Source: a virus
Direction: 5' to 3' (one strand)
DNA: 36,611 nucleotides
Virus record (IMG/VR): IMGVR_UViG_3300032053_000237
Location: 1 to 36,611 of that record
Below, piece by piece: positions 4,544 through 35,896 of this stretch. A model generated the notes under the pieces. It was not told the DNA's origin and made no database searches. It saw only the letters and a program-made list of their open reading frames with translations. Position 1 is the stretch's first letter, and each line of letters begins with the position of its first letter. A program made the position numbers and the translations under genes.

Positions 4544-4575
4544 AAAAAAGCCCAACACGCGAGCGCATGTTGGGC
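4544..4575 (-). terminator. Rho-independent terminator
   Basis: Perfect 8-bp stem, GCCCAACA (minus strand 4575-4568) pairing with TGTTGGGC (4557-4550), 10-base loop, followed on the minus strand by TTTTTT (4549-4544). It ends transcription of the small membrane-protein genes to the right. A weaker hairpin (about 4587-4604) precedes it. Confidence 0.88.
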
Positions 4576-4674: not shown

Positions 4675-4971
4675 TTACAATGTATTTTTGCAGCGCCCGG
4701 CTTGCACATCGCGCAACAGCGGCGCCACAAAAAATCCGCATACGGGGATGGGAGGATTGCCGCATTTGATGACATTGTTAAAATTGCTGCAAACTGTGCA
4801 TTTCTTTATCAAGTTGTCATAAGATCGGATCGTGTACGTGATCGTATAAGCCCCGCAAACAAATTGTTTAGCGTATGTACGGTAAAAAACATAGTAAGCA
4901 GCATAGCATAGACTTATGATTAAACAGAATGCCACGATAATACTCTTTTTACTAACATTTTTAGGACTCAT
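4675..4971 (-). CDS. Small membrane-anchored Cys-rich protein
   Basis: 98 residues. Lys-rich start, then one hydrophobic segment (about 10-30), which should act as a signal anchor, and a C-terminal part with six Cys (39, 58, 61, 70, 78, 94), besides C16 and C22 in the membrane segment. An outward-facing, disulfide-bonded domain is inferred. Start ATG with a strong site (AAGAGGATATT). It is the last of a run of small one-TM proteins before the terminator at 4544. No family recognised; possible roles include altering the host envelope or excluding other phages, but nothing in the sequence proves either. Confidence 0.68.
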   Translation of the reverse strand: MSPKNVSKKSIIVAFCLIISLCYAAYYVFYRTYAKQFVCGAYTITYTIRSYDNLIKKCTVCSNFNNVIKCGNPPIPVCGFFVAPLLRDVQAGRCKNTL

Positions 4972-4980
4972 AATATCCTC

Positions 4981-5310
4981 TTATTCGTTTAACAACATAC
5001 AATTAGTGGTAGCGTATAAAAACGCGGTTTGACACGATGTTGAAGTTTTTTCTAAATTATACCGATCGGTGCGGTTAACCTGCTGCCAAATTTCACAGCG
5101 TATCGGAGTAACGACCCTGCCCTCCCATCTCAGCTTAAACATGTATATCTTACTAATATTATTAGATCCTTCTACGCATGAATAGGTAGCAGAACGTGGG
5201 CGGACTGGAGGTGGACCTAATGGGTCAAAGTAAGCGATCACGCCTAGCGCCCAAACGGCCAACACGACCGCGGTCATTAATAATACAGAACCGTTTTGCG
5301 TGTGTCTCAT
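4981..5310 (-). CDS. Small membrane-anchored Cys-containing protein
   Basis: 109 residues from ATG 5310: short charged start, hydrophobic segment about 8-27, then a Pro-rich spacer (PPPVRPRS) and a domain with four Cys (45, 72, 93, 104), probably two disulfides outside the cytoplasm. A second in-frame ATG at 5316 lies one base from the TATAAT box and would overlap any transcript start, so I prefer 5310, which is 7 bases after TATAAT. Neither start has a Shine-Dalgarno sequence, so a leaderless mRNA is likely. Function unknown. Confidence 0.65.
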   Translation of the reverse strand: MRHTQNGSVLLMTAVVLAVWALGVIAYFDPLGPPPVRPRSATYSCVEGSNNISKIYMFKLRWEGRVVTPIRCEIWQQVNRTDRYNLEKTSTSCQTAFLYATTNCMLLNE

Positions 5311-5317
5311 CAGCATA

Positions 5318-5324
5318 ATTATAC
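5318..5324 (-). promoter_or_regulatory. GTATAAT promoter element, leaderless type
   Basis: Exact GTATAAT (AGGTATAAT) between the stop of the gene at 5330 and the start at 5310. There are 7 bases from TATAAT to the preferred ATG. Confidence 0.6.
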
Positions 5325-5329
5325 CTATT

Positions 5330-5656
5330 TTAAGGCGCCTTACCGCACAACGCCCAATATCGTCTTGGCCCCTTCTTGGTAAAGGTCTTTAAGCAGGGCG
5401 CATCCTTATATATCGCTCCGCAGCGTCGAGTGGCATGCTTAAGATTGTCTTGGTCCGTGGCGTTCCAGGCTTCAGTGGATTCGTTGACGATCACTGTAAC
5501 CGGACATGTGGTTTTCACTATATTTTGATAAGAGGAGATGGGGCACATAGTGATGATATATGCTAGTAAAAGCGATAGCAGTAATAAGATGAACTGCATG
5601 AGCCATTTGCCTGGTTTATTCAATGGGGTATTACTCCCATAAAATATAACGTCCAT
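5330..5656 (-). CDS. Small membrane-anchored Cys-containing protein
   Basis: 108 residues: about 18 residues before a strong hydrophobic segment (19-37), then a domain with five Cys (38, 51, 79, 88, 104). The end (about 78-105) has a compact pattern, Cys-Gly, then APCL, then ALCG, that looks like a small disulfide-stabilised fold. The ATG at 5656 lacks a clear ribosome-binding site and lies inside the end of a smaller overlapping ORF (5620-5742), so it may depend on translational coupling. Function unknown. Confidence 0.6.
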   Translation of the reverse strand: MDVIFYGSNTPLNKPGKWLMQFILLLLSLLLAYIITMCPISSYQNIVKTTCPVTVIVNESTEAWNATDQDNLKHATRRCGAIYKDAPCLKTFTKKGPRRYWALCGKAP

Positions 5657-5987: not shown

Positions 5988-7829
5988 TCAAGCCGCTTTC
6001 GCCATGGCAAGCGGTATACGTACCGTGAACACGCTACCTTCTTGCGGGAGCGAGGCGCAAGTTATTGAACCCTTTAATTCTTGGACAATGTCATAGACTA
6101 TGGCCAATCCTATGCCGTTTCCCGATGTAGCGCGCGCGAGTAAGGTAGGGGGATCTAAAAGCATAGACACATGATCTTTTTCCATACCGCAACCGGTATC
6201 AATCATTTTGATGACGAAATAATCATTTTCCATCTCGGTATGAACAGTAATTTTTTTAGAAGCTCTATTCTTTAATGATTTATAGGCGTTAGAGAGCAGA
6301 TTAAGGATCATCTGTTGGAATTTATTAACATTACCGTGCGCTATGGTTTGAGGAGCATAGAACGCACGTAAAAGCGAAACGCCTTCTACGGCGTATCCAC
6401 GCTCAACAACAAGTAGCGCTTGCTCGATCGTGCCGCCGATGTTAAAATGTTCTGTTGTAGCGCATTCTGGCTGTAAAATTTTCTTAAATTTCCGCGTGGT
6501 GTCGATGATCGCATTGATCGCCTTATCCTGATTTTTAATAAATTTCTGCGTCTTAGAATTTTCAATCAGTAGGGGATCAGATCGCTCCAATAACTCTAAG
6601 TTGCCCTTGATGATCATCAAAGGATTATTTATCTCATGCATCAGCCCGCTCATCAAAGCGCCAACAGAAGCAACGCGGGACGCCTGAAGCAATTTTCCGT
6701 GCATTACGTCCTGCTGCGTTTGCGCTTTTTCCAATGATCCCAGCATGTTATTCATAGATTGAGCTAGATCCGATAGTTCATCTGCGCCGGACAAAAAGAC
6801 GCGAGCGGTTAAATCGTTGCTGGCGTGTATCCGGTTGATCAATGTGCGCAGACGAGAAACACGCAGCAGCACCATACGGTCGACGATCCATAGCGTCATC
6901 GCGATCATGATGAACATCGCTAGGAAAGAACCGCCTATCCCCAACACCGCCGCTTTACGCGCTTGCGCGTTGATAGGTCTCTGCGCGGTCATCATGATCG
7001 ATGCCGCAGGTTTACCATAGATATCTTTAAAAAGCGTAGTCACTATGATCTGATTTGGAAGGGGCGTTTCTACCATGATTGCGTGCTGCAACTCAGCGTC
7101 GCTCAGATCATCGATCGATTTTAAAGACAGAGTAAGCCGCGTAAGTTTCGATATCTTTCCGACCGTCTCCTTGCTCAACCACTGACCGGCGAGCATGTAA
7201 CCGCGCGGTGGCCCAGTGTAATCTGTGCGAAGGATAGGGCGGCTAACCAAGAGAAGAACGCCTTCCGGCAGAGAGATGATGCCTTGCGCTTGATCTTCTA
7301 AATGCGATTCTTTACCGTTCTTTGCCTGATCTTTTTTATGCGTAAAATGAGAGAAATACGGGTTTGCTAAAAGAAACTTCTTGGTGATAGATTTAGGGGG
7401 CGGCACTAATTTTCTCTTGATCGTGTCCGCGCCCTGAGCCCACACTATATTGCCCTTATCATCAACAAACGCCATCAGGTGAACGCCCATCACCAACATG
7501 GACTCGCCTAGATCATTTTTAAGGTAAGCCTGATTATGGTCTTGGATGAACTTATACGTAGCATCCCACCCAGAATAATCACCTAACTTAGCGGCTAGGA
7601 AATTAAATTCTTGCTCTATTTGACCTTGAACTTGCTGCGCTTGATGCGTCGCTTGATCTTGCTCTATCTTGTCTAGTTGTTGGTTGAAATACACGCCCAT
7701 AAACGTGTTGAAGCTGGCAAAACAAAGAAACTGCGCGATGACTACGATCAACAACGTCTTCTTGCGCAACGTCATGTGCTCAAACGGTCGACCGTCGATG
7801 ATATGGCGAACAAAGCGTGGTAACCTCAT
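5988..7829 (-). CDS. Membrane sensor histidine kinase (CHASE4-HAMP-HisKA-HATPase)
   Basis: 613 residues. TM1 about 24-48; extracytoplasmic sensor about 50-290, whose first part (FLAAKLGDYSGWDATYKFI, 77-95) matches the CHASE4 pattern; TM2 about 294-316; HAMP about 320-370; dimerisation helix with phospho-acceptor His398 (LMHEINNP); ATP-binding half with N-box N510/N514, G1 box D544-TGCG and G2 box GNGIGLA (570-576). Every catalytic motif is present, so autophosphorylation is expected. The start ATG (AAGGA upstream) overlaps the stop of the response regulator gene as ATGA, so the two are translationally coupled. A complete sensor kinase is rare in a phage. Signal and target are unknown. Confidence 0.92.
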   Translation of the reverse strand: MRLPRFVRHIIDGRPFEHMTLRKKTLLIVVIAQFLCFASFNTFMGVYFNQQLDKIEQDQATHQAQQVQGQIEQEFNFLAAKLGDYSGWDATYKFIQDHNQAYLKNDLGESMLVMGVHLMAFVDDKGNIVWAQGADTIKRKLVPPPKSITKKFLLANPYFSHFTHKKDQAKNGKESHLEDQAQGIISLPEGVLLLVSRPILRTDYTGPPRGYMLAGQWLSKETVGKISKLTRLTLSLKSIDDLSDAELQHAIMVETPLPNQIIVTTLFKDIYGKPAASIMMTAQRPINAQARKAAVLGIGGSFLAMFIMIAMTLWIVDRMVLLRVSRLRTLINRIHASNDLTARVFLSGADELSDLAQSMNNMLGSLEKAQTQQDVMHGKLLQASRVASVGALMSGLMHEINNPLMIIKGNLELLERSDPLLIENSKTQKFIKNQDKAINAIIDTTRKFKKILQPECATTEHFNIGGTIEQALLVVERGYAVEGVSLLRAFYAPQTIAHGNVNKFQQMILNLLSNAYKSLKNRASKKITVHTEMENDYFVIKMIDTGCGMEKDHVSMLLDPPTLLARATSGNGIGLAIVYDIVQELKGSITCASLPQEGSVFTVRIPLAMAKAA

Positions 7830-8221
7830 GGCGTTCCTTTCGCGAAAGTATCAAACAATCTCGCGAGATCTTGATAGCTAAACGGTTTCGCGAGATACCC
7901 GTCTACCAACCCGTCGATCGCCATCGTTCGCGCCCCCAAGAGATCGCCAAGTATGTTGCCAGACATAGCCACCATCCGCAGTCCGCAAAACCGGTTAGAC
8001 GCGGATATCGCCCTTATAAGCTCCTCGCCATCCCCGTTCGGCATGATTATGTCGGTCAACAGCACGTCGTACTTGTTCTTGACCAACTTATCGGCCGCCT
8101 CGTGTCCGCTGCAAGCGGTGTCCACGGTAAACCCCATGTCGCAAAGGTACTCGCCCAAGATGAACCGCAGCCCCTCTTCGTCGTCCACGATCAAGACGCG
8201 CCCTCGCTGGTCCTTGCTCAT
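7826..8221 (-). CDS. Single-domain response regulator (CheY-like receiver)
   Basis: 131 residues, a stand-alone receiver without output domain. Acidic pocket D14/E15 region (VDDEEG), phospho-acceptor D57 (LLTDIIMP), switch residue S87 (AMSGN) and conserved K112-P113 (LAKPF) are all present, so it should accept phosphate. The start ATG has GGAG eight bases upstream. Its last codons overlap the start of the sensor kinase (ATGA), making that kinase the obvious phosphodonor. Without a DNA-binding domain it must act through a partner protein, by passing the phosphate on, or as a phosphate sink for host signalling. Its codons are more C/G-ending than those of most neighbours. Confidence 0.92.
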   Translation of the reverse strand: MSKDQRGRVLIVDDEEGLRFILGEYLCDMGFTVDTACSGHEAADKLVKNKYDVLLTDIIMPNGDGEELIRAISASNRFCGLRMVAMSGNILGDLLGARTMAIDGLVDGYLAKPFSYQDLARLFDTFAKGTP

Positions 8222-8281: not shown

Positions 8282-9454
8282 CTATTTTGTGGCAGCTATG
8301 GAGCGGAGGTAGGCGAGGACCTCGATCGCGGTGCCCATGAAGCCGTTGGCGCCGTACTTGAGGAAGCGCTTTTGGATCTCACCGTTACGGTTCATTATTG
8401 TGTTTGTCCATTGGCCCCCACGCAAAGCCATGCGCTCTCGAAGGATTTCTTCAGTTTCGCAGATGGCAACAAGGATGAAGTCGAGTTGGTCAGAGTGGCG
8501 ACGTATGGTGGTAGATATTTTGAAGGTTGGGTCATAGAGCTTTGACTTAGTAGAAGGAGTAAGCAGAAGGTCAAGGTGATTTTGTTTAGGGTTGTTATCA
8601 TAAGATATATAGTCGAACTTATCTAGCAATTGGTTGGCTACCCAGGACTTACCAGAGGCAGGGGCACCGATGAGAAGATAGACGGTAGGTTTGGAGGAGG
8701 AAGGAGGATGTAACCATTCATTAAATTGAACCGCTGTATTATCTCCCCTTCCGTATTGAGAGTGGAATTTTCCATGACATGATTCACATAAGCATGCGCC
8801 ATTGTCAATAGAAAGTCTTTGATCAGGAAACAGATTGAACGCATTCTTATGATGGGCGTGTAATTTTCCGCCCCTTCTATAGCACCTTTGACATATAAAA
8901 TTAGCCTTAGAGAGTACATCATATGTCCAGGCTTTACCCTCCAGTGATTGACGAAGAAGAGTATTCTCTGGAGAGACAAAACCGTTGAAATCTTCTATAG
9001 AAATATTGCGTTTAGAGCACGACATCTTGATATGCATTTGCTGTATTTGATCATCAGTGTAATTGGAGAACTGTTCTAATTTTTTCTGTCTAAGCACTGA
9101 TTTAGTATGTTCAGTGTGGCATTGCCCCTTAAAAGGCGATGTACCACCATTTTTTGCCCAATGATTCTCTACCATTTTTTTATGAGTTTCTTCTGTAAGA
9201 TGGCGCTTTTGACTGCGTTTGGCAGCAAGGACATAGTCTTGATTGTGGAAGCATTTAGAGCATAACTTGTTCTTTAGGGATTGCTTGAGTTTGATGTTGC
9301 GCTCTATACCACATTGTGGACAGTTGTCGATTACGCGGAGTTGTCCTTTTTTATCAACTTGAGGGGCATTCGCAATCTCTACCTTAGTGCGACGTTTTCG
9401 TGAAACATCTATATCGTAGCCAAGTAACTCTAATGTACGCTGCCTGTTGAACAT
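8282..9454 (-). CDS. HNH endonuclease fused to a P-loop kinase-like domain
   Basis: 390 residues. An N-terminal zinc knuckle (C45/C48, C65/C68) is followed by two basic helical stretches at about 84-125 resembling NUMOD3-type DNA-binding repeats (LTEETHKKM; TEHTKSVLRQKK). The HNH nuclease spans about 185-232, with Cys pairs CQRC (188-191) and CESC (223-226), catalytic H201/H202 and a distal His. A separate NTPase domain (about 256-390) follows, with Walker A GAPASGKS (263-270) and a downstream Arg-rich segment, like phage polynucleotide/nucleoside kinases. The HNH half looks like a free-standing homing endonuclease that has joined a kinase gene. Its ribosome-binding site lies in a hairpin. 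Confidence 0.85.
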   Translation of the reverse strand: MFNRQRTLELLGYDIDVSRKRRTKVEIANAPQVDKKGQLRVIDNCPQCGIERNIKLKQSLKNKLCSKCFHNQDYVLAAKRSQKRHLTEETHKKMVENHWAKNGGTSPFKGQCHTEHTKSVLRQKKLEQFSNYTDDQIQQMHIKMSCSKRNISIEDFNGFVSPENTLLRQSLEGKAWTYDVLSKANFICQRCYRRGGKLHAHHKNAFNLFPDQRLSIDNGACLCESCHGKFHSQYGRGDNTAVQFNEWLHPPSSSKPTVYLLIGAPASGKSWVANQLLDKFDYISYDNNPKQNHLDLLLTPSTKSKLYDPTFKISTTIRRHSDQLDFILVAICETEEILRERMALRGGQWTNTIMNRNGEIQKRFLKYGANGFMGTAIEVLAYLRSIAATK

Positions 9455-9548: not shown

Positions 9549-9587
9549 TTAAAAATGAAAGGGTCAGCCACATCAGCTGACCCTTTC
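9549..9587 (-). terminator. Rho-independent terminator after the major capsid gene
   Basis: Perfect 12-bp stem, GAAAGGGTCAGC/GCTGACCCTTTC (9576-9587 with 9557-9568), 7-base loop, then ATTTTTAAAA on the minus strand. A second, AT-rich 9-bp inverted repeat (9591-9619) lies between it and the capsid stop codon. A strong terminator after a very highly expressed gene is expected. Confidence 0.92.
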
Positions 9588-32101: not shown

Positions 32102-32109
32102 ATTATATC
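32102..32109 (-). promoter_or_regulatory. Promoter-like element GATATAAT
   Basis: Variant of the repeated element, 7 bases before the ATG at 32094. Part of it is also the SbcC-like stop codon, so coincidence is harder to exclude. Confidence 0.38.
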
Positions 32110-33875
32110 ACATCTGAAGATATAGAAGAAATTGAGTTATGTTTCTCAACGCGCACTATCTGTTTAAACGTTGTTTTGGCTTCTGTCACATGATCGATCA
32201 CCCATATCTGCCGTGTCGCAGACATTTTCTCAAGGATTGTTGTTATGAGTTCACGCCCTACGCTATCCAATCCGTTAAAAGCTTCATCTAAAATCAGCGG
32301 ATTAACGGAGATGCTGAAATATCGCGAAAGCGTTTCTATTAATGCAAAGTCAACCGCCAATGAAAGAGCCCGCAATTCCCCACCAGACAAACTGCCGATT
32401 GTTGCGGTTTTACCATTAATAATCAACGCATTAGAAAATTTAGCAACAATCTGACCATCGACGTTTTCGCGGGATGAGTTGAGACGATATGACGCATTCG
32501 GCCATAATATTCCAACATATTCGGCCACTAACTCATTAAATGATTCTATAATAGAATCAAGTATATACGCCATGGCGCCAGTCGACGAATAGATATTCGA
32601 TATATCCTTAAATATCTGTTGACGCTGCTTCATAACTTGCTGTCGCGCGGATATCTCGAGGGAGGCGCTAGTTAATTGCCCTTTTTTCTGTTGAATACCC
32701 ACTAATGCCGCCAATTCCGCGTCATATTGAGCGCGTCGCTGCTCTAACGATCGCTGTAAACCGCGTTGTTCTATCAAATCTCGCTGTGCCCTGTCATATT
32801 GCGCGCTAGCTTCTATCTGTTTTTCTTGTAACTGCCCCAATACGTGTGATATTGAACTCTCTTTTAATAGGCATTCATCAATTTGATCTAATTCATTTTT
32901 TATAACGCATCGTTGTTTTTCAAGTTGTTGTTTTTTATTGGCAATTTCATATTTTAATAGCTTTTCATCTACTTTCACTACAACACTATCTTCTACGTGC
33001 AATAAAACACCACAAGACGGACAAACAGGTAGGGCGCGGTTGATGATAGCATTTAATTCTTCACTAATAGCATTAAATTCTTGCATTTTTTGCGGACGCA
33101 GCGTTCGCGCGATCAAGATCTGTCTAAGTGCACTATGCAGTCCAATTTCCTTTTCTTTATATCGGGCAAGATCAGGACGATCAATTTGAGATAACCCCAT
33201 TAACGATGCGTTAAGGCGCTCTGATTGCTCCATCACGCTACTCAGATCATTTTGTATATCTTTCTCAGCGCGAGATTGCAAGGAATCATAGGTGGCGATT
33301 TGAGCTTGTAGTATATCTAACTCTTTTTGTAATCGATCAATTTCTTGCTGCGCCATAGATCCTGCCATATCAGACAATTGACGGCAAGCCATAAGCTCGT
33401 CTAACCGAAGAAGCGTCAATAAAAACTCTTTCTTAGCTGTATCGTTGAGCAACAAAAAACGCATGTCGCTAGTTTGAGCACAGTAGATAACAGTTAAAAA
33501 TTGATCATAATCGAGATGCAGTATTGTCTCAAATTCATCTTGGGATAGAGCAATTAATTGATTATTTTTATAAAATATTAAATTCTTGGGCCGTTCACGA
33601 CGGACTCGATATCGATCTTCTCCTATCTCGATCTCTACTTCTACATATCCAGTTGTTGTCCCTCGCCGCAGGATCTCAGTGGTCGTGATCTGACGTGGCA
33701 TTTTTCCGTATACGCCAAATGCCAATGCATTAAAGATAGCGGTTTTACCCGCCCCGTTAGCCCTATCTGCATCCGCGTTCCAACCATCGACCAAAACAAG
33801 ACCAGTCTGCCCAAACTGCAACTCAGCATCCTCAAAACTCAATATATTATGAATTTTAAGTCGCGTTATTTGCAT
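32103..33875 (-). CDS. SbcC/gp46-like recombination ATPase (Rad50 family)
   Basis: 590 residues, close to T4 gp46 (560) and much shorter than bacterial SbcC. Walker A ANGAGKT (39-45), long coiled-coil arms with a central zinc hook CPSCG, ABC signature LSGGELRAL, Walker B LILDEAFNGLD and the H-loop (VIDHV) are all present. Partner of the SbcD-like nuclease, whose gene is about 9 kb downstream. I use ATG 33875; the frame opens with TTG at 33887 but neither has a good ribosome-binding site. The start overlaps the end of the preceding gene by 10 bases, implying coupling. Confidence 0.9.
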   Translation of the reverse strand: MQITRLKIHNILSFEDAELQFGQTGLVLVDGWNADADRANGAGKTAIFNALAFGVYGKMPRQITTTEILRRGTTTGYVEVEIEIGEDRYRVRRERPKNLIFYKNNQLIALSQDEFETILHLDYDQFLTVIYCAQTSDMRFLLLNDTAKKEFLLTLLRLDELMACRQLSDMAGSMAQQEIDRLQKELDILQAQIATYDSLQSRAEKDIQNDLSSVMEQSERLNASLMGLSQIDRPDLARYKEKEIGLHSALRQILIARTLRPQKMQEFNAISEELNAIINRALPVCPSCGVLLHVEDSVVVKVDEKLLKYEIANKKQQLEKQRCVIKNELDQIDECLLKESSISHVLGQLQEKQIEASAQYDRAQRDLIEQRGLQRSLEQRRAQYDAELAALVGIQQKKGQLTSASLEISARQQVMKQRQQIFKDISNIYSSTGAMAYILDSIIESFNELVAEYVGILWPNASYRLNSSRENVDGQIVAKFSNALIINGKTATIGSLSGGELRALSLAVDFALIETLSRYFSISVNPLILDEAFNGLDSVGRELITTILEKMSATRQIWVIDHVTEAKTTFKQIVRVEKHNSISSISSDVI

Positions 33876-34414
33876 GCGGTCAGCCAAGGAAGATAGTGCT
33901 GCATATTCTGGATTTGGCCGGCGAGACGTCTCAACATAAAAGAATAGTCAGTGCCGCGCCGCAAGTTGCTCTTATCGCGGACTATGGCGTGTAGGTGCTC
34001 TAACTCCATCACCACCGTATTGAACTGCGTTAATGTGCGGTCTAATTTCATTTCTCCAAAAATATCGCAAGCACGCAGCAATGGATCCTCTCGAAACTTC
34101 CTTAATACGCCTTGGAATAAGGTAGCCGAGGATATAGCAAAATTAGGCAATTCCCCCAACACGATACGATGTAAAATCAATTGGCGCAGTATGTTGTGTT
34201 GCCGTTGAACATTAACATCTCGTTTATCGAGATGCTTGTACGGCTCAATTTCTTGCTTTAAATTTTCCACTATATTGATGATAATCTTACAAATGGCGTG
34301 ATACGCCCTTTCTTCTGAAATGCCATCCTTCCGCACCACAGATTGAATAGCGTTAACAATGCTAGTATTAAACCCCTTATTGAGTAAATTTTGAATAGCG
34401 TTGCGCGAAATCAT
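33866..34414 (-). CDS. Unknown helical protein linked to the receiver gene
   Basis: 182 residues from ATG 34414, eight bases after GAGG and overlapping the stop of the receiver gene as ATGA. The longer frame (34459) lies inside the receiver gene and lacks a site. Nearly all helix; long charged helices (NIVENLKQEIEPYKHLDKRD) and Leu-rich segments. No motif recognised. Tight coupling to the receiver makes it a candidate output or partner protein, or a link between signalling and recombination, since it also overlaps the SbcC-like gene. Confidence 0.66.
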   Translation of the reverse strand: MISRNAIQNLLNKGFNTSIVNAIQSVVRKDGISEERAYHAICKIIINIVENLKQEIEPYKHLDKRDVNVQRQHNILRQLILHRIVLGELPNFAISSATLFQGVLRKFREDPLLRACDIFGEMKLDRTLTQFNTVVMELEHLHAIVRDKSNLRRGTDYSFMLRRLAGQIQNMQHYLPWLTACK

Positions 34415-34749
34415 GCAATTTTCCTCAAAGAGCGCACTATTGGAGCTGTACCTCTGCACTTATCAACAATCTGATATTGATCAATTTGACGCGCGATCCC
34501 AGACATAATTAGCGTAGGCAATTTAATGCCCTTTTTATCCAAAATTTCCAATAACTCCCATCCGTTCATATCCGGCATATATGCGTCCATTAAAATGGCA
34601 TCTGCAAGAGCTACCTTTTTAAGCGCTTCTTTGCCCGACATCACGGGCATCACTGTAAATCCTGCTTTTTTTAAAGAAAAGCATAATACAGCTAAAAAAT
34701 CAGCGTCATCGTCAATTACCAAAATATTCTTTCTTTTTTTTGAATTCAT
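34411..34749 (-). CDS. Single-domain response regulator, shortened
   Basis: 112 residues. Receiver domain with acidic pocket D13/D14 (VIDDDAD), phospho-acceptor D55 (ILMDAYMPDMNG) and switch S83 (LIMSG). The usual Lys-Pro near the end and the last helix are not recognisable; the C-terminus reads RGTAPIVRSLRKIA, so phosphotransfer chemistry could be altered. It follows the kinase-like gene after 2 bases and overlaps the next gene by ATGA. Start ATG with AGGTGG upstream. No output domain. Confidence 0.85.
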   Translation of the reverse strand: MNSKKRKNILVIDDDADFLAVLCFSLKKAGFTVMPVMSGKEALKKVALADAILMDAYMPDMNGWELLEILDKKGIKLPTLIMSGIARQIDQYQIVDKCRGTAPIVRSLRKIA

Positions 34750-34751
34750 AA

Positions 34752-35480
34752 TTACGCCACCTGTTGATATTGTACATTATCCGTTAACGCCATCTGTCGG
34801 CGCTGTATCTCATTAGTCTGCATAGGAATAACTACGGTTAACGCATGGCATGTTATGCCGTTGCAATCTTCTAATTTAATTTTACCGCCAATATTAAGAA
34901 CTAAGTCCTCAAAAAACTTTATGTTTTCATCAGTAACCGTCCAAGTTCCATTAGAGACTATAGGAACAAGCGTGATATGGAGCTGATCATCAATCATCTG
35001 AACCTGTATTTTTAATGTCATTGGATCAAAGATTGCAATGGATTTATGTTTCAAAAAATAACAGCATAAGTATCCTAAATTACAAGTAAAATAATCGGGC
35101 GATGCATTAATGTGTGCTGATTTTATATTTAATGACAGATCAATCGTTTTATTGAACTTCTTAAATAATGAATTTAAAAAAGAACTAAGCTCATCCAACG
35201 ATTCAACTGCATCAAAAGATATTTTAGCATCTGACATATGATTTATTGTTGACATGCCCGTGCATAACTCTGACATGCGCTTTAATGTTTTTTTCATGCG
35301 ATAAAGCGTCATTTCTCCCTTCATGTTCACCTGCGTTGACAGAATATCTAAGCAACCTAAAAGCACGCCAGCAAGACCAGAAAAATCATGATTCACTGGA
35401 GAAGCTATGGCGTTCAAAATAGCTTTATGTGCATCAGATAATACATTAGGAAGATCCTTTTCAAATATAGCAGAATTCAT
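34752..35480 (-). CDS. Histidine kinase-like protein with degenerate ATPase half (phosphotransferase or pseudokinase)
   Basis: 242 residues, no membrane segment. A dimerisation/phosphotransfer helix pair with likely acceptor H31 (VNHDFSGLAGVLLG, the HDF-type H-box) and second helix (about 55-80), followed by a kinase-ATPase-like fold (about 95-215) ending in the typical NIGGKIKLED...IP strands. The glycine-rich G1 and G2 boxes are not seen, and the N-box is reduced to N134. It should not bind ATP normally and resembles ChpT-type phosphotransferases or pseudokinases. Its receiver partner follows. A GTATAAT box precedes the gene. Confidence 0.72.
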   Translation of the reverse strand: MNSAIFEKDLPNVLSDAHKAILNAIASPVNHDFSGLAGVLLGCLDILSTQVNMKGEMTLYRMKKTLKRMSELCTGMSTINHMSDAKISFDAVESLDELSSFLNSLFKKFNKTIDLSLNIKSAHINASPDYFTCNLGYLCCYFLKHKSIAIFDPMTLKIQVQMIDDQLHITLVPIVSNGTWTVTDENIKFFEDLVLNIGGKIKLEDCNGITCHALTVVIPMQTNEIQRRQMALTDNVQYQQVA

Positions 35481-35526
35481 AGTCTACCGCCCTTTATGGA
35501 TTTGTAATTGCCTAAATTTCGTAATT

Positions 35527-35533
35527 ATTATAC
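35527..35533 (-). promoter_or_regulatory. GTATAAT promoter element for the second signalling module
   Basis: Exact GTATAAT (CGGTATAAT) in the 59-base gap before the kinase-like gene at 35480. It is touched by an inverted repeat on its upstream side. Confidence 0.65.
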
Positions 35534-35557
35534 CGCCGCTTATCGTCTATGCGGCGG
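35533..35557 (-). other. GC-rich inverted repeat next to the promoter
   Basis: CCGCCGC/GCGGCGG, 7-bp perfect stem with 11-base loop, spanning the stop codon of the zinc-ribbon gene and ending on the first base of GTATAAT. There is no U-run, so it is not a standard terminator; it could be an operator or weak transcript end. Confidence 0.5.
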
Positions 35558-35896
35558 TTTGGTGTGGATCTGCATCTGCTTATTATCATCAAACCATATC
35601 CAACCCTGTTCTAGCATAGTTTGAACACTATATGTGCCTGATGCCACGAAACGCGGCACCTCATGGGTCCAAAAGTATTCATCGTGGCGCTGTTTGATCA
35701 TGTCTTGTTGATCTTGTTTCCAACGAACACCAGTACCAACATCGACTGTCTCTCGCACCTCAGACGCCCCCGTTAATATAGGAAGCTGGGGCTCCATAGT
35801 TCTGCCGCATTCACATAGTGCACGAGGTGCATCTTTCTGTACTATCCGATGCTCAACTCGGCCACAATATGCGCATTTGAATGTTCTTTTTGCCAT
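35540..35896 (-). CDS. Zinc-ribbon protein of unknown function
   Basis: 118 residues. N-terminal zinc ribbon with C8/C11 (CAYCG) and C28/C30 (CECG), then a linker and a C-terminal domain rich in aromatic residues (QGWIWFDDNKQMQIHTKPP). Short zinc-ribbon proteins of this type are common in phages and may bind nucleic acid or protein; no specific function can be given. No ribosome-binding site; the ATG is 2 bases after the preceding stop, so translation is coupled. Confidence 0.68.
   Translation of the reverse strand: MAKRTFKCAYCGRVEHRIVQKDAPRALCECGRTMEPQLPILTGASEVRETVDVGTGVRWKQDQQDMIKQRHDEYFWTHEVPRFVASGTYSVQTMLEQGWIWFDDNKQMQIHTKPPHRR

Follow-up and report, generated by a model that had tools for sequence, protein, structure and literature searches.

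Phosphorelays control commitment decisions in bacteria. In Bacillus subtilis, the dimeric phosphotransferase Spo0B has the build of a kinase core and transfers phosphate from one receiver to another. In Caulobacter crescentus, ChpT (PDB 4fmt; CckA-ChpT-CtrA/CpdR relay; PF10090) has the phospho-accepting His33, has lost the ATP lid and does not autophosphorylate (PMC3433190). Among viruses, phoR/phoB genes occur in soil phages (PMC10987575), and hybrid kinases in EsV-1 and kinases in giant viruses have been reported (PMC12993054). Jumbo phages carry divergent receiver-like cREC domains, which are associated with NAD/ADP-ribose genes and have never been seen together with histidine kinases (PMC7824862), and the phage protein PIT4 binds host kinase domains (PMC10714779). 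Phage histidine kinases and receivers are already known, and a stand-alone phosphotransferase lacking the ATP site was not found described in a phage; no description of a phage phosphorelay or of a phage ChpT-like protein was found in the open-access literature, in keeping with the original prediction, which had called such a phage relay undescribed.

The window (the whole stretch of DNA analysed here, a virus record of 36.6 kb) encodes an HPt-like protein, HPt, in a short cassette next to a core gene of the phage:

35540..35896, minus strand: g35540, conserved core gene of 118 aa, located ahead of sbcC in relatives (from their core order)
33869..35539, no strand: cassette between g35540 and sbcC (limits approximate, from gap comparison in relatives)
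34752..35480, minus strand: HPt-like protein (HPt), 242 aa, ATG start, with a DHp hairpin (aa 10-81) and a degenerate Bergerat/CA domain (aa 87-219)
35388..35390, minus strand: H31 codon of HPt, predicted phospho-accepting/transfer His
34411..34749, minus strand: RR2, shortened receiver of 112 aa (D13/D14/D15, D55, S83; PF00072 1.7e-13)
34585..34587, minus strand: D55 codon of RR2, predicted phospho-accepting Asp
33866..34414, minus strand: 182-aa orphan, third gene of the cassette, start overlapping the RR2 stop (ATGA)
32103..33875, minus strand: sbcC-like DNA-repair gene, phage core (PHROG 77, 1.5e-68)

Like ChpT, HPt is stand-alone, soluble and of similar size, with its histidine near residue 30 (His33 in ChpT, H31 in HPt), a DHp hairpin followed by a degenerate Bergerat domain, and a receiver as partner (PMC3433190). 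Unlike ChpT, it matches no PF10090 profile and lacks the H-box proline (Pro38 in ChpT), and whereas ChpT is an alphaproteobacterial cell-cycle gene with CtrA as partner, HPt is phage-borne, is known from its sequence and has a shortened single-domain receiver beside it. The likeness to ChpT that had been claimed for this protein is therefore borne out for size, position of the histidine, loss of the ATP lid and fold, and fails at the family profile and the H-box proline. The resemblance to Spo0B is one of general knowledge, with no match to the Spo0B family. Virus-borne two-component genes are kinases or ordinary receivers, whereas HPt stands alone without an ATP site. The cREC domains are likewise receiver-like domains of large phages, but the two receivers of this phage (RR2 and RR1, below) differ from them in being ordinary PF00072 domains. 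Inhibitors of the RetS/PIT4 type are kinase-like or phage proteins that act on another kinase, while HPt has no sensor region and has a receiver of its own.

A kinase core with its histidine kept and its ATP site lost

HPt is known from one genome. Its reading frame is preceded by a Shine-Dalgarno-like sequence (AAAGGGCGG) ahead of the ATG, and 242 open codons at its GC content of 35% would be expected by chance with a probability of about 2e-8. H31 lies within 'NHDFSGLAGVLLGCLDIL'. Sequence searches returned no family at E<=1 in Pfam (including PF10090, the Hpt domain PF01627, the Spo0B family, PF02518 and PF00512), no match in NCBIfam or PADLOC, nothing better than E 0.04 in PHROG and nothing better than E 0.16 among PDB sequences. 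A comparison of profiles was more informative: with hhalign, residues 20-225 scored 37.8 against a profile of 38 kinases, while the highest score among 60 shuffled sequences was 22.9 (median 13.6) and reversing the sequence gave 14.2, so that the relationship of HPt to histidine kinases, as read from its sequence, is above chance. A phmmer search covering 296 genomes from a single bacterial phylum yielded weak matches only, in most of the leading ones with the alignment starting at HPt residues 2-22; in the four best alignments (those alignable to long kinase frames) H31 fell on the histidine of HDF-type kinases, e.g., 'HDFNNILTVILGHTEMLL'. Tblastn against 20 bacterial loci gave nothing useful. 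No relative was found in viral_contigs, genome_contigs, plasmids or 32 relatives of the phage, and the phages database gave a single weak match, to an ordinary kinase. A scan for kinases (by pattern, from a three-sequence kinase alignment) found 39 viral contigs, some of which are perhaps prophages or misassigned bacterial contigs, and none of these loci held a relative of HPt. Its significant BFVD matches were longer proteins, nearly all of them named histidine kinases.

Aligned with 19 kinases, HPt retains the histidine and loses the ATP site. H31 corresponds to His in all 19, and the adjacent D32 to Glu or Asp. Position H+4, usually Thr or Asn in HisKA kinases, is G35, and the H-box proline (H+5) is replaced by L36. 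Both asparagines of the N-box are tyrosines (Y137 and Y141), although K144 is kept; in the G1 box the aspartate is S176 and the second glycine W180; a clean deletion of 25 columns takes out the ATP lid together with the G2 box. The N, G1 and G2 boxes, which are intact in active HisKA kinases, are thus not intact here, and because these N-box and G1 residues and the lid with G2 are lost, ATP binding and autophosphorylation by HPt are very unlikely. What had been proposed from the letters alone, an HDF-type phospho-accepting histidine in a protein without G1 and G2 boxes, is visible in this alignment, where the N-box is lost as well.

Structure models also place HPt in the kinase fold. AlphaFold2, run on the alignment with the 19 kinase cores, gave our better model (pLDDT 79, pTM 0.65), which is partly circular and not independent because kinase sequences supplied its alignment; two helices (10-47 and 53-81) form the DHp hairpin and are followed by an alpha/beta, Bergerat-like domain. 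In a Foldseek search of the PDB, the best 50 of 273 matches at E<=0.001 were DHp-CA structures of the histidine-kinase fold (top E = 1.4e-8), among the matches being the RetS-GacS DHp complex 7n0e; the TM-scores of only about 0.4-0.55 support the fold class and not the domain arrangement. The model from the single sequence was poor (pLDDT 42) with a similar topology, and it too matched kinases; we counted it as weak support only. The original prediction had suggested a comparison with the ChpT and HisKA folds, and its outcome was favourable, ChpT (4fmt) itself being matched by the alignment-free model. LvrB (8vc9), one of the top structural matches, was not retained as an analogue for a relay, since PMC13269768 describes an active kinase. 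Taken by its sequence, HPt is a divergent histidine-kinase core that has kept the transfer histidine, and we hold with high confidence that it is a degenerate kinase fold without an ATP site.

A translationally coupled cassette in an insertion hotspot

The phage family was gathered with DnaE, terminase and SbcC as anchors; several of its members are 150-177 kb long, and the core order is shared. In 39 of the 61 contigs that hold both neighbours, g35540 and sbcC are separated by -7 to +50 bp, and this short gap in relatives identifies the cassette as an insertion at a hotspot. The remaining 22 contigs carry other inserts at the same place (165-1570 bp), those examined being HNH-like endonucleases, small ORFs and three membrane-type ORFs; HPt, RR2 and the 182-aa gene were present in none of the 61. 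ORFs resembling HNH homing endonucleases lie at the junction in three relatives (L016:5445-5915, L020:5670-6140 and L041:4764-5372), which suggests how the hotspot may have originated. In another (L039:2554-4126) it is occupied by an overlapping operon of three ORFs (151, 203 and 155 aa) with hydrophobic, probably membrane, N-terminal segments. Elsewhere in the family, the terminase is split around residues 175-180 in L004 (1834-7170) and L011 (21062-23413), and in L004 also at about 390-400, which suggests introns, inteins or homing elements.

Three close relatives (L044, L045 and L046; terminase 57-59%) are in Bacteroidota MAGs. Strong Shine-Dalgarno use is unusual for Bacteroidota, and in the phage family such sequences precede 50-100% of the scored genes in 20 of 21 loci (25% in one locus of four genes; chance 17%); a firm call of a Bacteroidota host was rejected on account of this heavy use.

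The three genes of the cassette each have a Shine-Dalgarno-like sequence ahead of them and are tightly joined: RR2 starts 2 bases past the HPt stop, the ATG of the 182-aa gene (at 34414) overlaps the RR2 stop as ATGA, and the ATG of sbcC (at 33875, the same Met as used by the sbcC of relatives) lies inside the 3' end of the 182-aa gene. The cassette is thereby positioned so that translation continues into sbcC, and the coupling to a 182-residue protein and an SbcC-like gene that had been noticed from the sequence is confirmed. A promoter scan near the cassette gave results at chance level.

RR2 matches PF00072 with 51.2 bits (curated cut-off 30.2), over profile positions 1-81 of 111 only. It is shortened after beta-4, and K97 can be taken as the conserved lysine only on the assumption of a short helix alpha-4. 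Judged by its residues and profile match, RR2 is truly a receiver, though an unusual one; the prediction of a receiver 2 bases beyond HPt stands as to identity and D55, and has to be amended in that the domain is not a standard one. The 182-aa protein belongs to no recognisable family and has no relative in viral_contigs; it is the only linked candidate for an output.

The kinase-receiver module and its relation to the cassette

A second set of two-component genes is encoded near the other end of the window:

7826..8221, minus strand: RR1, complete single-domain receiver of 131 aa (D57, K112; PF00072 3.4e-18)
8051..8053, minus strand: D57 codon of RR1
5988..7829, minus strand: HK, sensor kinase, CHASE4-HAMP-HisKA-HATPase (N, G1 and G2 boxes intact; overlaps RR1 by 4 bp)
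6636..6638, minus strand: H398 codon of HK, phospho-accepting His
9557..9587, minus strand: terminator-like hairpin (14-pair stem and T run) separating the HK module from the major capsid gene
4550..4575, minus strand: terminator-like hairpin closing the HK module (11-pair stem and T run)

The kinase and receiver that had been recognised at 5988-8221 are what they were taken for: HK has the expected domains and H398, its boxes (NLLSNA, DTGCG and NGIGL) are complete, and RR1 retains both D57 and K112. HK, RR1 and RR2 match viral two-component PHROGs (families 857 and 731). The capsid gene and the thymidylate-kinase-like gene, which are 0.1-0.7 kb apart in several relative contigs, are separated by 8.3 kb here, and the HK-RR1 module lies within this second accessory insertion. 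Directly upstream of RR1, the same accessory stretch contains an HNH endonuclease fused to a P-loop kinase-like C-terminal part (8282-9454, minus strand). Directly downstream of HK and ahead of the strong terminator are three small Cys-containing proteins (4675-5656, minus strand; 108, 111 and 98 aa), each with a hydrophobic, probably membrane, N-terminal stretch and none with a family match, which are possibly linked to the CHASE4 sensor.

Searches with PF00072 and PF02518 gave no match in the 65 relatives, nor in 8 records retrieved through the terminase, among them Myxococcus phage Mx1, while in the window the PF00072 search matched twice. Many of these records are fragments, and it is only in the longer ones that the absence can be called firm. 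It follows that the HK/RR1 module, too, is private to this phage among its relatives, and the occurrence of both modules together, only here, favours a single system. The difference in GC content between the modules makes separate origins likely (HPt 35.0%, RR2 37.8%, HK 46.3%, RR1 55.8%; core 47.7 +/- 4.1%), and from this composition HPt/RR2 and HK/RR1 probably come from different sources. The two modules occupy separate insertions with 26 kb between them. Across the alpha-1 face (E15-L26 of RR1, D15-L26 of RR2), the two receivers have only 2 of 12 residues in common, and Pfam finds an output domain in neither. All parts of a His-Asp-His-Asp series are encoded, namely H398 of HK, D57 of RR1, H31 of HPt and D55 of RR2, so that the original prediction, that the phage has every part of such a phosphorelay, is correct as to parts; distance, GC content, the alpha-1 faces, the shortened RR2 and the lack of an output domain argue, at the level of sequence, against a ready-made four-step relay.

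A possible phosphotransferase and its alternatives

The reading we prefer, on sequence and models, is that HPt and RR2 form a ChpT-like phosphotransferase/receiver pair, which we consider somewhat more probable than its contrary; that HPt is a phosphotransferase and not an inert docking protein is likely. HPt would be a pseudo-histidine-kinase that dimerises through a DHp four-helix bundle. Unable to use ATP, it would be phosphorylated on H31 by one receiver and would then donate the phosphoryl group to D55 of RR2, the receiver that is translated along with it. HPt, RR2 and the 182-aa gene form an AT-rich, translationally coupled cassette of recent acquisition that lies immediately ahead of sbcC. 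As to the donor, the most economical choice would be D57 of the phage's own RR1, charged by the membrane kinase HK, giving the order HK-H398, RR1-D57, HPt-H31, RR2-D55; a host receiver is the alternative donor. Feeding of HPt by HK/RR1 is conceivable, although we lean against it, and a complete four-step phosphorelay of the phage, which would sense the envelope of the infected cell and set its output by way of RR2, the 182-aa protein and sbcC, we regard as unlikely.

The strongest competing explanation, itself rather doubtful, directs the pair at the host: in the infected cell, HPt and RR2 would bind to kinases or receivers of the host and drain or redirect phosphate from a host relay, or block that relay, HK/RR1 being a separate system. 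The separate insertions and differing GC contents of the two modules fit this, as do receivers devoid of an output domain, and there is a precedent in PIT4, a phage protein that binds several host histidine kinases (PMC10714779), with RetS-GacS (7n0e) among the structural matches of HPt; set against this are a complete kinase and receiver of the phage's own, absent from 65 relatives, and the fact that no host or host partner was identified. Quite improbable is a partner switch without phosphorylation, in which HPt would be a dimeric scaffold for RR2 and the 182-aa protein, release being set by the state of RR2, and H31 a structural relic: the ATGA coupling of the sole candidate output to RR2 and the loss of the usual HisKA residues at H+4 and H+5 would suit such a scaffold, but H31 and the acidic D32 beside it are kept as in active kinases. 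Still less probable is an inert remnant, a bacterial kinase gene minus its ATP site decaying as a passenger beside a receiver that is losing its end too, for although the cassette is low in GC like the HNH insert (34.3%), RR2 is shortened, the H-box proline and the boxes are lost and relatives are absent, both frames are open with good Shine-Dalgarno sequences and joined by the ATGA overlap and the 2-bp spacing, H31 and D55 have been retained but the residues that bind ATP have not, and the ATP lid has been cleanly deleted. A reading as a defence system was rejected, because PADLOC gave only weak matches, to receiver-like parts.

The g35540/sbcC junction is an insertion hotspot that can be mined for accessory genes in this phage family. 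If the preferred reading of HPt and RR2 as a phosphotransferase/receiver pair is true, a phage with a phosphotransferase incapable of using ATP would either operate a relay by itself or tap into one of its host, and phages would borrow relay hubs, beyond sensor kinases and regulators.
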